Shown here piece by piece: positions 858-38,964 of a stretch of 64,000 bases of DNA. The notes beneath the pieces were generated by a model. The model was given only the letters and a program-made list of their open reading frames with translations. It was not told the origin of the DNA and did no database searches. The stretch's first letter is position 1. Every line of letters starts with the position of its first letter. The position numbers and the translations under genes are program-made. Source of the DNA: Deltaproteobacteria bacterium (lineage in GTDB: Bacteria; Myxococcota_A; UBA9160; UBA6930). The DNA is taken from assembly GCA_016875395.1 (NCBI GenBank), contig VGRF01000016.1, forward strand, positions 1-64,000, in the 5' to 3' direction.

Positions 858-2312
858 TTACTTCTTCTCGATCTCTTTCACGCGGTCTTGGCCCACCTGG
901 CCCTCGCCGACGACGTAGCCGAGCGCGCGAAGCTGGTTCAGCTCCATCTCGTCGAGCTCGACCGACGCGCCCTCGCCCCAGGGCGCCTTGCGCCACGCAA
1001 ACGACTCATCGAGCTGAGTGCGGAGCTCTTCCGACCACGCGGGCGGGTTCTTGCGCAGGTTGCGCCGCTCACCCGGATCGGTCGCGAGGTCGTACACCTG
1101 CAGCGTCTCGTTCGCCTTCGCCTTGCTGTAGATCACGCGCTGCGTGTCGCGCTGAACTCCGACGAGCGGCTTCGGCTCCATCTCGATCTGGCCCCACACC
1201 TGATCGATGTAGGCGTGCGCAGGAGGCGCCTCCACGACCTCGCCGCGCGCGGCAGCCTGCATCATCGGCACGAGCGAGATGCCGTCGGTATCGGGCAGCG
1301 CCGGCAATCCCACGAGATCGAGCAGCGTCGGCCAGATGTCGACGTTGCGAACGAGCGAGTCGACCACGAGTCCGCCCTCGACGCGGAATGGCAGCTGGAA
1401 CATCAGCGGAACGTGGACGACTTCCTGATGGATGTCCGTCGCGTGGCCCTCGCGGCCGTGCTCGCCGAAGGCCTCGCCGTGGTCGGCCGCGATGACGACG
1501 ATCGTGCGCTTGCTGAGGTCGAGCGTGTCGAGCGTCGAGATCAGCGCCGCGATGTTTCGATCGGTCCAGTGGATCGAGCGGTCGTAGACGTTCGCGATCG
1601 TCGCGTCGCCGAACTTCTGCTCCGCGGCCGCGTCGTCGTAGACGTACTGGTGCACGTCCATGTAATGGAGGTAGAGCAGGAACTTCTCGCGCTGGTTGGT
1701 CTTGAGGAACTCGATCGCGGAGAGCGTCACGTCCTCGTCGGTGCCTGCGAGCTGCGCCTCGGTGCGGCCCTTGCGCTCGACGTGCGCCGCGTCGGTACGC
1801 GGCATCGGCTTGAGGTACAGGTCGAAGCCCTGCTGAAAGCCGAAGTTCGAGGACACCCAGCCGTTTCGGAAGATGCCCGCGGTCGTGTAGCCAGCCTTCG
1901 AGAAGAGCTCCGCCGGCATCACCGCGGAGTCCGGCAGCGCGTGATCGAAGCGGGTCACGCCGGAGCGCTGCGGAAACAGGCCGGTCCACAGCGACGCCAT
2001 CGAGCACTTCGTCCAGCTCGACTGCGACTGCGCGCGCGCGAAGCGCACGCCGTTGTCGGCGATCACGTCCATGTTCGGGCTCGTCTCGCGCGCATAGCCG
2101 TAGCTCGAGAGGCGATCGGCACGGAGCGTGTCGATCAGCACGAACACGACGTTCACGTCCTGCCGCTCGCGCAGCTTCGCGAGGTCGCTCTCGATCGTGC
2201 CCACGTGCCGCGAAGCGCCGCGGATGTCGAACATCCAGACGAGAGTGCCGAGCACGAGCAGCCCCGCGAGCGCGAAGTAGGTCCAAGGCGAATCGATCAG
2301 ACGGCGCAGCAC
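858..2312 (-). CDS. Membrane-anchored sulfatase-superfamily hydrolase
   Basis: 484 residues from a GTG start. One N-terminal membrane segment (about residues 11-29) is followed by an alkaline-phosphatase-fold sulfatase domain. Metal-site motifs are VLIDTLRADRL (D61, D66) and ADHGEAFGEHG. The active-site loop reads SSWTKCSMASLWTGLFP. Aligned to the wTlPSxaSLxTG version of this loop, the nucleophile position is T101 and C103 takes the place of the usual Pro, so it is not the C-x-P-S-R motif matured to formylglycine. The enzyme could therefore be a phosphoester or phosphonate hydrolase rather than a true sulfatase. Transcribed away from the terminator at 2383-2412. Confidence 0.85.
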   Translation of the reverse strand: MLRRLIDSPWTYFALAGLLVLGTLVWMFDIRGASRHVGTIESDLAKLRERQDVNVVFVLIDTLRADRLSSYGYARETSPNMDVIADNGVRFARAQSQSSWTKCSMASLWTGLFPQRSGVTRFDHALPDSAVMPAELFSKAGYTTAGIFRNGWVSSNFGFQQGFDLYLKPMPRTDAAHVERKGRTEAQLAGTDEDVTLSAIEFLKTNQREKFLLYLHYMDVHQYVYDDAAAEQKFGDATIANVYDRSIHWTDRNIAALISTLDTLDLSKRTIVVIAADHGEAFGEHGREGHATDIHQEVVHVPLMFQLPFRVEGGLVVDSLVRNVDIWPTLLDLVGLPALPDTDGISLVPMMQAAARGEVVEAPPAHAYIDQVWGQIEMEPKPLVGVQRDTQRVIYSKAKANETLQVYDLATDPGERRNLRKNPPAWSEELRTQLDESFAWRKAPWGEGASVELDEMELNQLRALGYVVGEGQVGQDRVKEIEKK

Positions 2313-2382: not shown

Positions 2383-2412
2383 CGAGGCGGCCACTCTCGC
2401 GAGTGACCGCCT
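2383..2412 (-). terminator. Rho-independent terminator of the minus-strand PEP-CTERM tail
   Basis: A 30-base hairpin with GAGGCGG/CCGCCTC outer arms and a nearly self-complementary interior (CACTC...GAGTG). Read on the minus strand it is followed by GTGGTTTTTGGGG, giving a T-run directly after the stem. It lies 41 bases past the stop codon at 2453 and is the mirror copy of the terminator at 2716-2745. Confidence 0.75.
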
Positions 2413-2452
2413 CGGGTTTCGAGTTCGAGAGCGAGCCGCAGCTCGCCTCGGG

Positions 2453-2564
2453 CTACTTCAGCTTGCGGCGGCCGACGGCCACCAGGCCGGCGATGCCCGC
2501 ACCGAGGAGCATCAGCGTGCCCGGCTCCGGCGCGTAGGTGAGGATGAGGAACGTGGGCGACACC
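2453..2564 (-). pseudogene. Orphan PEP-CTERM tail, left copy
   Basis: The minus strand encodes APEPGTLMLLGAGIAGLVAV followed by GRRKLK and a stop. This is a complete PEP-CTERM sorting signal: Pro-Glu-Pro, one hydrophobic helix and a basic end. Upstream, VGEAVSPTFLILTYA also matches the right-hand copy. Beyond the axis at about 2564 the frame only reads the antisense of the other copy, so the body of the secreted protein is missing. A 72-residue frame with a start codon exists but is probably not a functional gene. Confidence 0.7.
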
Positions 2565-2682
2565 GCCTCGCCGACGTTCCTGAAGCTCACGTACGCCGCG
2601 ACGCCGGAGCCGGGCACGCTGATGCTGCTCGGTGCTGGCGTGGCGGGCCTCGTGCTCGTGGGTCGCCGCAAGCTCCGCTAGG
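2565..2682 (+). pseudogene. Orphan PEP-CTERM tail, right copy
   Basis: The plus strand encodes TPEPGTLMLLGAGVAGLVLV followed by GRRKLR and a stop, preceded by SPTFLKLTYAA. It is the counterpart of the minus-strand tail, differing by a few residues and a two-residue insertion. There is no protein body upstream; the frame runs into the inverted copy. Like its partner it ends in a terminator, so this looks like the preserved 3' end of a PEP-CTERM gene. Confidence 0.7.
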
Positions 2683-2715
2683 GCCTGCTAGGCGATCACG
2701 CCTGATCCAAAGTGA

Positions 2716-2745
2716 GAGGCGGTCACTCGCGAGAGTGGCCGCCTC
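2716..2745 (+). terminator. Rho-independent terminator of the plus-strand PEP-CTERM tail
   Basis: Hairpin GAGGCGG...CCGCCTC, extended on both sides by AAAGTGA/TTCACTTT and followed by TTTTGC. It lies 34 bases after the stop at 2682 and 25 bases before the next gene, which it should insulate from read-through. Confidence 0.75.
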
Positions 2746-2769: not shown

Positions 2770-4218
2770 ATGTTGATTCGCGGCTGCCAAGTCGATGGCG
2801 CGCACTGCGACGTGCGCGTCGATCCTGCCGCCGGCCGCATCGCGGAGATCGCGCGGCGGCTTGCCGCGCTCGCCGCTGAGCACGTCATCGAAGCGAGCGG
2901 CGGTGCGCTGCTCCCCGGGCTGAACGACCACCATGCGCATCTGTTCGCCACTGCCGCCGCTCTCGGCTCGGTTCGCTGCGGGCCTCCCCACGTGCGCGAC
3001 GCGCCAGCTCTGGCTGCGGCGATCTCGGCAGCGCGCGCGGGCGACGGCGGCTGGCTGCGCGGCGTCGGGTACCACGAGGCCGTCGCGGGCGCGCTCGATC
3101 GCCTCGCGCTCGACCGCATCGAGGACGCGCGGCCCGTGCGCGTGCAGCACCGCACCGGCGCGCTGTGGGTGCTGAACAGCGCCGCGATCGCGATGCTCGG
3201 CCTCGACGCCGGAGTCGACGCGCCGGGAGTCGAGCGCGATGCGGTAGGGCGCGCGACGGGGCGCCTGTTTCGTCTCGATGCGTGGCTTCGCGCGCGCATC
3301 GCGGAGTCGGCGCCCAGCGCGAGCTCCTCGCCGCGCAAGGCTCTGGAGCCGGCGCTGCGCGCGCTGTCGCAGCACTACGCGCGCTGTGGAGTCACCGGCG
3401 TGACGGACGCGGGCGCCGACAACGGCGCCTCGGCTCTCGCGGCCATCGCCGACGCTCAGCGAGCGGGCGATCTCGCGCAGCGTGTGCTCGTGATGGGAGA
3501 CGAGTCGTTGCCCGTCCTCGCGACGCCGGAGCTGTCGACGGGCGCCCTCAAGCTGCTGCTCGACGAGCGCGCGCTGCCAGACCTCGGCTCGCTCGTCGCA
3601 CGCATCGCCGCGGCGCACGCGCGCCGGCGCACGGTGGCCGTTCACTGCGTGACGCGCGTCGAGCTGCACTTCGCGCTCGCCGCGCTCGCCGAGGCTCGCG
3701 TGCTGCGCGGCGATCGCATCGAGCACGCCTCGGTCGCGCCGCCGGAGGCCGTGCGCGAAATCGCGCGGCTCGGCCTCACGGTCGTGACGCAGCCGAGCTT
3801 CGTGCTCGAGCGCGGCGACACCTATCTGGACGATGTCGACCCCACGGACCGCGCCTGGCTCTACCGCGCCCGCGTCTTTCTCGCGCAGCGAACTCCGCTC
3901 GCCGCTGGGAGCGACGCACCGTACGCCGAGCCCGACCCCTGGCGCGCGATGCGGGCCGCCTGCGAACGCCGCACTGCGGGCGGCGCCGCGCTCGGCAGCG
4001 CGGAGGCGCTCACGCCCGAAGAGGCGCTCGCGCTCTTCACAGCCCCGCTCGAAGCTCCCGGCAGCGCCCCGCCGCCTCTCGCGCCGGGTGCGCCCGCGGA
4101 CCTGTGCCTGCTGCGCGTGCCCTGGAGCGAAGCGAGACGCAACTTGCACGCAGATCTCGTCACCGGCACCTGGCGCGCGGGCCACCTTCTCTGGAACGAG
4201 GACGCGCCTCGCCCCTGA
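2770..4218 (+). CDS. YtcJ-type amidohydrolase (amidohydrolase 3 family)
   Basis: 482 residues. The metal-binding signature is LPGLNDHHAHLFA near residue 55, with later VAVHCVTRVELHFAL, GDRIEHASVAPPEA and AAGSDAPYAEPDPW. This is the order expected of metal-dependent TIM-barrel hydrolases of the YtcJ group. These enzymes hydrolyse C-N bonds in amides or cyclic compounds; the substrate is not predictable. No signal peptide, so cytoplasmic. It starts just after the terminator of the PEP-CTERM remnant and is followed by a long palindrome. Confidence 0.85.
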   Translation: MLIRGCQVDGAHCDVRVDPAAGRIAEIARRLAALAAEHVIEASGGALLPGLNDHHAHLFATAAALGSVRCGPPHVRDAPALAAAISAARAGDGGWLRGVGYHEAVAGALDRLALDRIEDARPVRVQHRTGALWVLNSAAIAMLGLDAGVDAPGVERDAVGRATGRLFRLDAWLRARIAESAPSASSSPRKALEPALRALSQHYARCGVTGVTDAGADNGASALAAIADAQRAGDLAQRVLVMGDESLPVLATPELSTGALKLLLDERALPDLGSLVARIAAAHARRRTVAVHCVTRVELHFALAALAEARVLRGDRIEHASVAPPEAVREIARLGLTVVTQPSFVLERGDTYLDDVDPTDRAWLYRARVFLAQRTPLAAGSDAPYAEPDPWRAMRAACERRTAGGAALGSAEALTPEEALALFTAPLEAPGSAPPPLAPGAPADLCLLRVPWSEARRNLHADLVTGTWRAGHLLWNEDAPRP

Positions 4219-4251: not shown

Positions 4252-4307
4252 GGGACGTTCCGCAAGAAAGTAAAGCTGGGTTTCTTTACTTACTTGCGGA
4301 ACGTCCC
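4252..4307. repeat. Long intergenic palindrome (REP-like)
   Basis: 24-base arms, 4252-4275 and 4284-4307, match with a single mismatch around an 8-base loop; each arm opens with GGGACGTTCCGCAAG. No T-run follows, so it is not a classical terminator, although transcripts would form a very stable hairpin 33 bases after the amidohydrolase stop. Single long palindromes of this type resemble REPIN elements mobilised by RAYT transposases; no such transposase lies in the window. Confidence 0.75.
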
Positions 4308-37404: not shown

Positions 37405-38028
37405 TCAGCGCCGCTTGCGCTGCCGAGCCGCAGCGAGCGCGCCGGCGGCGACCGTTGCGAGCGCGAGGAACGACGGCTCGGGCACCGAGCGGAGAGTGAA
37501 GTTGTCGATGCCCTCGACCTCCCCGCCGAACACCGCCTCGACGCTGAGCCGTATCGACGTGACGTCGGCGAGGATCGCGTCCCACTCTTGTTGCGTCTTC
37601 CCAAAGGCCGCCGCCGAGAGCGTCGCCGAGTAAGTCGTCCAGGTCGCGGTCGGTTGGCCGGGCGCCGGCAGCAGGTCGAGGGTCGCGCTGCCACCCGGCC
37701 CAGAGATCGTGAGGTGCCCGTAGTCCTCCCCTGCGCTCGTCCACGGCGGGGCCGTGATCGAGAGCTGATTGCCGTCGAACGACACCGTTCCGCCGTCGAA
37801 CGCGCTCAGGTCCCCGAGAAACTTCGCGGGTGCGAAGATGTAGGTGATCGGGCCCTCACTGTTGTCGATGTAGAGGAAGCCATTCGGACCGGCCACCAGT
37901 TGCTGAAACACCGAGGCGCCGGTGTGAGTCCAGCCATCCGTATCGACTTGGAAATCGCTCGTGATCGTGGTGGCGCTCGCGAAGCCGGGAGCGACGGCGA
38001 GGAAAGTACAGAGCAGCAATGCGCGCAT
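37405..38028 (-). CDS. PEP-CTERM protein with a laminin-B-like domain
   Basis: 207 residues. A signal peptide (RALLLCTFLAVAPGFASAT) is followed by a beta domain with SDFQVDTDGWTHTGASVFQQ, IFAPAKFLGDLSAFDGGTVS, LTISGPGGSATLDLL and EGIDNFTLRSVPEP, matching the laminin B/IV domain often seen in PEP-CTERM proteins. The C-terminus is the sorting signal: PEPSFLALATVAAGAL and a basic RQRKRR end. It should be exported and processed by an exosortase, which is not in the window. Start ATG 38028, with AAGGAG upstream. Confidence 0.85.
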   Translation of the reverse strand: MRALLLCTFLAVAPGFASATTITSDFQVDTDGWTHTGASVFQQLVAGPNGFLYIDNSEGPITYIFAPAKFLGDLSAFDGGTVSFDGNQLSITAPPWTSAGEDYGHLTISGPGGSATLDLLPAPGQPTATWTTYSATLSAAAFGKTQQEWDAILADVTSIRLSVEAVFGGEVEGIDNFTLRSVPEPSFLALATVAAGALAAARQRKRR

Positions 38029-38175
38029 GGTCCGAGACTCCTTGGGGATGAAGTGGGCGGCGGCCGGTGGAAGTGGCAGCCGAATTTCCTGAAAAATCTC
38101 TGAAGCCCGCGACTGCTCGGCATTGAAGCGCGCAAGACTAGACGCGACGCTCGGCTCTCCTGGGAGGAGTCCCGC

Positions 38176-38964
38176 ATGTCCGGTCGTCTCGCTGGCAAAG
38201 TCGCGTTCATTACCGGCGCTTCGTCGGGAATCGGCGCCGCGTGTGCGCTGCGCTTTGCGCAAGAGGGCGCGTCGCTGGCGGGCTTCGACTTGAACAAGCC
38301 GGAAGCCGGCGCGGGCGACGACTGGCTCGCAGGCGCCGCGCTCGCGCGTAACACCTTCTTCGAGACCGGCGACGTGCGCGACGAGGCGCGCGTGCGCGAA
38401 GTCGTGGCGCAGGTGAAGGAGCGGCTCGGGCGCATCGACGTGCTGGTGAACGCCGCGGGCGTCGCTGGCGGCGGCATGGTGCACATGCTCGACTCGAACG
38501 AGTGGGACCGCGTCGTCGACGTGAACCTGAAGGGCACCTACCTCGCGTCGAAGCACGTACTCGGCGTGATGCTCGCGCAGCAGAGCGGCGCGATCGTGAA
38601 CGTCGCGAGCGTCGAGGGCATCGAGGGCTTCCTCGGCGGCAGCTCCTACAACGCGTCGAAGGGCGGCGTCGTGCTGCTCACGAAGAACATGGCGATCGAC
38701 TACGCGCGCGCGGGCATCCGCGTGAACGTGATCTGCCCCGGCTTCATCGACACGCCGATGTTCCGCGCCGTGATCCTGAACGGCCCGGCCGCCGCGATCG
38801 CGCCGCAGATCAAGGAAGCGCACCAATTAGGGCGCTTCGGCAAGCCCGTGGAGATCGCGAACGCCGCGCTCTTCCTCGCGAGCGACGAGGCCAGCTTCGT
38901 CACCGGCGTCACGCTGCCCGTCGACGGCGGCTACACCGCCGGGCATCGGTTTTCGCTGGGGTGA
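38176..38964 (+). CDS. Short-chain dehydrogenase/reductase
   Basis: 262 residues. AFITGASSGIGAACALRFA (cofactor), VLVNAAGVAGGGMVH, VNVASVEGIEGFLGGSSYNASKGG (Y-x3-K) and ICPGFIDTP are the classical SDR landmarks, with VTLPVDGGYTAGHR at the end. Likely oxidises an alcohol or reduces a ketone with NAD(P)H. ATG 38176 is preceded by GGGAGGAG. TAGACG at 38139-38144 may be its -10 box. Confidence 0.87.
   Translation: MSGRLAGKVAFITGASSGIGAACALRFAQEGASLAGFDLNKPEAGAGDDWLAGAALARNTFFETGDVRDEARVREVVAQVKERLGRIDVLVNAAGVAGGGMVHMLDSNEWDRVVDVNLKGTYLASKHVLGVMLAQQSGAIVNVASVEGIEGFLGGSSYNASKGGVVLLTKNMAIDYARAGIRVNVICPGFIDTPMFRAVILNGPAAAIAPQIKEAHQLGRFGKPVEIANAALFLASDEASFVTGVTLPVDGGYTAGHRFSLG

Follow-up and report, generated by a model that had tools for sequence, protein, structure and literature searches.

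An inverted pair of orphan PEP-CTERM gene ends, probably a gene-decay scar, in a deltaproteobacterial draft genome

We present here an imperfect inverted repeat in which two PEP-CTERM gene ends point away from each other across a 7-nt axis, and which is probably a decay scar: a collapsed pair of outward-facing PEP-CTERM paralogues whose bodies were removed by rearrangement. The repeat lies near the start of a 64,000-nt stretch of DNA, analyzed as a whole and called the window here, from G000, a metagenome-type draft assembly of 4.51 Mb in 96 contigs that is about 96% complete. Both arms are the ends of one gene family that is whole in relatives. The structure is likely to be a scar of ordinary gene decay, unusual in its joint, and not a mobile element or a new system. 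PEP-CTERM proteins (TIGR02595, PF07589) belong to the exosortase (EpsH) system, and their paralogues expand lineage by lineage (Haft et al. 2006, PMC1569441).

Table 1. Features of the palindrome and its flanking genes, by position in the window
Feature	Position	Strand	Evidence and remarks
Sulfatase (PF00884), syntenic anchor of minus arm	858..2312	-	Pfam E = 1.8e-44
Rho-independent terminator-like hairpin	2383..2414	-	Terminator scan: 14 pairs, loop 4, TGGTTTTTGG tail; 3' of minus tail
Orphan PEP-CTERM gene end, 36 codons with stop (SPTFLILTYAPEPGTLMLLGAGIAGLVAVGRRKLK, stop)	2453..2560	-	TIGR02595 24.0 bits; profile A1 E = 2.3e-12
Minus-tail ORF	2671-2453	-	Ends in PEPGTLMLLGAGIAGLVAVGRRKLK, stop
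Axis CACCGCC, 7 nt	2561..2567		Between arms; GGCGA / TCGCC on either side; sequence and self-alignment
Plus-tail ORF	2538-2681	+	Ends in TPEPGTLMLLGAGVAGLVLVGRRKLR, stop
Orphan PEP-CTERM gene end, 38 codons with stop (SPTFLKLTYAATPEPGTLMLLGAGVAGLVLVGRRKLR, stop)	2568..2681	+	TIGR02595 23.0 bits; profile A1 E = 1.7e-14
Terminator-like hairpin core	2716..2745	+	3' of plus tail; RNA fold of 2682-2770, -52.5 kcal/mol, z = -5.7
Amidohydrolase (PF07969)	2770..4218	+	Pfam E = 1e-41; start 24 nt past plus hairpin core

The repeat occupies positions 2361-2768 and aligns with its own reverse complement over all 408 nt (BLAST, 74% identity, E = 1.3e-61), reaching 86% in the segment pair 2460-2532/2602-2674 and 85% in 2361-2413/2716-2768. 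As single-stranded DNA it folds into a single long hairpin of -179 kcal/mol, compared with -102 for shuffles (z = -17). The original prediction of two PEP-CTERM signals reading outward from about 2564 agrees with the arm starts, at 2560 (minus) and 2568 (plus), which set the axis at 2564. In each arm the outward order is PEP-CTERM tail, stop, hairpin. Exact inverted identity runs longest in the hairpin cores (30 nt; 2384-2413 against 2716-2745) and in a 25-nt part of the tail. Neither stretch crosses the axis, across which no exact inverted match of at least 11 nt was found. The stop-to-hairpin spacers, 39 and 35 nt in the two arms, now align poorly.

Both tails exceed the 16-bit cut-off of TIGR02595, match the PEP-CTERM family profile A1, and carry the PEP motif, hydrophobic segment, and basic residues of a PEP-CTERM C terminus. 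Neither tail ORF (74 and 47 aa) has a body or, as judged by reading, a signal peptide, and the sequence ahead of each tail is the antisense of the opposite arm. The predicted loss of the protein bodies thus holds at the palindrome, and it extends to the rest of the assembly: a family-profile search found no full-length family gene elsewhere in G000, where the two arms are the only clear family members and match the full-gene profile in its C-terminal part only. That each arm has its own stop and outward-facing hairpin was confirmed as well. The minus hairpin has both the G+C-rich stem and the T-run of a Rho-independent terminator and passes the terminator scan (RNA fold of 2360-2452, -60.2 kcal/mol, z = -6.0). 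The plus hairpin has the stem and folds comparably; the scan did not call it because of a break in its T-run (TTCACTTTTGC).

At the DNA level, the tails match the ends of PEP-CTERM genes throughout the order at roughly 71-91%. The relatives' genes with a matching tail are mostly about 210-420 aa long and often tandem, and each one read has a strong hairpin shortly 3' of its stop (e.g., GGGGCGGTCACCTCGGTGGCCGCCCC in G013; GAGGCGGTCACTCGCGAGAGTGGCCGCCTC in the window). Genes of this resident family therefore normally end in such a tail and hairpin, and the description of the arms as gene ends carrying an export tail and a terminator-like hairpin stands. Paralogues in G004, G009, and most other relatives are tandem and not outward-facing. 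On contig C276 of G013, two PEP-CTERM paralogues (L111 and L112; 84% identical) point outward about 18 kb apart and have near-identical terminators.

The position of the minus arm is also that of a family gene. It shares the strand of the sulfatase, and 141 nt separate its stop from the sulfatase start downstream. Of 54 sulfatase loci, 20 have the end of a PEP-CTERM gene in the 450 nt upstream on the sulfatase strand, and none has one on the opposite strand (background, about 0.002 PEP-CTERM gene ends per 450 nt). In many genomes of the order, a sulfatase-family gene is immediately preceded by full-length PEP-CTERM genes, one to five in tandem (L113, L114, L122, L126, L128, L133-L135, L138, L140, L143, L144, L148, L150, L175, L191, and L193). 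The minus arm is the expected PEP-CTERM gene end, minus its body, at this conserved place. A literature search on the linkage of PEP-CTERM genes and sulfatases found nothing relevant. In G004 and G009, which belong to the same family as G000, the neighborhood holds the sulfatase, two PEP-CTERM genes, and, a few kb on, spermidine-synthase-like, amidohydrolase, and Rieske genes, with the amidohydrolase within about 10 kb of the PEP-CTERM/sulfatase group. The same three genes form the right flank of the palindrome, so its two sides derive from one ancestral neighborhood.

Two further features were observed in the window. A second palindrome, at 4252-4307 (GGGACGTTCCGCAAG...CTTGCGGAACGTCCC, inner AAGTAAA..TTTACTT), lies between the amidohydrolase and the next gene; it is REP-like in look and is present in a single copy within the window. 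A full-length PEP-CTERM protein is encoded on the minus strand at 37408-38826 (open frame of 473 aa, ending in VPEPSFLALATVAAGALAAARQRKRR).

The differences between the arms follow a coding pattern. From SPTFL to the stop (36 codons), the arms differ at 20 nt, distributed 3/3/14 over codon positions 1/2/3 (P = 0.0009). The amino acid changes in 4 of the 36 codons, where random placement of the substitutions expects 12.5 ± 1.8 changes, and 4 or fewer occurred in 0 of 20,000 trials. From PEP to the stop, the counts by codon position are 3/2/9 for the arms and 3/3/8 and 1/1/7 for intact paralogue pairs at L133 and in G013, respectively; the divergence of the arms resembles that of intact paralogues in relatives. 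The third-position bias and the few amino acid changes indicate that the arms were still parts of two coding genes while they diverged, and that the bodies disappeared later. The arms are, as had been proposed, too diverged for a simple snap-back. The proposal that one gene end was duplicated in inverted form is disfavored by the same synonymous divergence, which is that of two working genes, and by the location of the minus arm where a PEP-CTERM gene ends in relatives.

No exosortase was detected in G000, with no match to TIGR02602 or PF09721 in an assembly of this completeness; a PF09721 match is present in 36 of the 41 genomes searched. Three small genomes of the same family (G001, G002, and G005) have neither exosortase nor PEP-CTERM tails. 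G000 has 18 PEP-CTERM tails at E values up to 0.05, most of the PEPA or PEPS type and not PEPGTLMLLG. Because tails also occur with no detected exosortase in G038 and with only a sub-threshold match in G034, the absence in G000 may be an assembly gap. A missing exosortase may be the reason for the decay of the PEP-CTERM genes: with the sorting enzyme lost, its cargo would no longer be needed, and loss of the bodies could have been tolerated since the enzyme was already gone.

Under the decay-scar reading, the parents would have been two working paralogous PEP-CTERM surface-protein genes in outward orientation. A rearrangement would have joined them at nearly the same codon, leaving the 3' ends and terminators, and a single event at a hairpin or at short inverted homology (GGCGA/TCGCC) may have taken out both bodies. 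An exported protein is most likely no longer encoded by the remnant, whose present role would be limited at most to stopping stray transcripts. Several points count against this reading. An intact parent pair was not seen among the relatives compared, which are from outside the genus; as their paralogues are mostly tandem, an extra inversion or strand switch is needed. For a random deletion, breakpoints in the two genes that agree on one codon to within 7 nt are unlikely, and the identical 30-nt hairpins beside spacers that do not align are left to constraint or conversion. The joint fits a hairpin-guided deletion (for inverted paralogues) or a polymerase strand switch (for tandem ones) better than a random deletion. 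It is conceivable, though doubtful, that two diverged inverted paralogues formed an extruded hairpin and, on removal of its tip, were shortened symmetrically to the same codon and resealed, which would make the locus a natural record of hairpin-tip deletion in a bacterium. A literature search on deletions between head-to-head paralogues found no papers.

Other origins were weighed against a decay scar. A replicating strand that turned at the axis and copied tail and terminator backward (fold-back, or snap-back), with the arms drifting later, would account for the mirror symmetry to within 7 nt and for the short quasi-palindrome at the axis, and fold-back at short inverted repeats is established as a mechanism in both yeast and human cells (PMC7467729, PMC3907307). 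Arms that were orphans from birth should have drifted neutrally, without a coding pattern, yet third positions account for 14 of the 20 differences and the amino acid is altered in only 4 of 36 codons, which makes this origin unlikely. An assembly or library chimera, in which two real gene ends were joined and the intervening bodies dropped, is about as improbable. Among amplification artifacts, inverted joins with sequence skipped are typical, the draft is of metagenome type and in 96 contigs, and the structure is unique in 379 genomes; against this, the flanking genes on both sides share one neighborhood in G004 and G009, and the 30- and 25-nt exact inverted matches miss the axis, which leaves the joint unexplained by a k-mer repeat.

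The suggestion of a hitch-hiking element carrying a complete export tail and terminator fared worst. Its end hairpins, inverted and identical over 30 nt, resemble terminal inverted repeats, but genes of the resident family ordinarily end in this tail and hairpin, the locus is where such genes usually lie, and the multiple dispersed copies of a mobile element or MITE are lacking. A search for further copies of the arm, which the original prediction had called for, found the window locus alone in G000, and no other head-to-head pair of tails (two PEP-CTERM motifs 55-85 nt apart) was found in 80 genomes of the order or in 379 of the phylum; the exact axis sequence was absent from viral contigs. 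A mobile origin is extremely improbable. A 91-aa tail ORF on C3 (L032) was considered as another orphan and rejected, having another tail type (PEPEALALFLLG) and no mirror partner. Scarcely more probable than a mobile origin is a retained functional unit, whether a bidirectional terminator that insulates divergent operons from each other or two short tail peptides that are expressed. Its hairpins are intact, neither tail is interrupted by a stop, and it sits between two divergent genes; however, both ORFs lack a signal peptide and a body, no exosortase was detected, a scan limited to sigma-70-type promoters found no promoter-like site in the region, and the arrangement is seen in no relative.

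Read as a decay scar, the locus is a clean, explained case of gene decay, in which synteny and codon pattern indicate that two surface-protein genes existed and were then lost. If the exosortase is truly gone, G000 would let the decay of cargo genes after loss of the sorting enzyme be watched. As a lead, the PEP-CTERM/sulfatase linkage throughout the order is worth more than the palindrome itself.

Compared with known systems, both arms share with PEP-CTERM/exosortase proteins the Pro-Glu-Pro motif, hydrophobic stretch, basic end, and stop, as well as the lineage-specific expansion of paralogues; unlike them, the window tails lack body and signal peptide, stand head to head, and have no exosortase detected in their assembly. 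Fold-back inversions and inverted duplications of yeast and human cells (PMC7467729, PMC3907307) have the same mirror symmetry about a short axis, whereas the window arms diverged as coding genes and not as copies made by the event. A further likeness is to the full PEP-CTERM genes upstream of sulfatases (L113, L114, L122, L133, and L175), which share the tail, the strand, the sulfatase-adjacent position, and a similar stop-to-hairpin spacing with the window arms and differ in having full bodies and in being tandem, not inverted, at the sulfatase.
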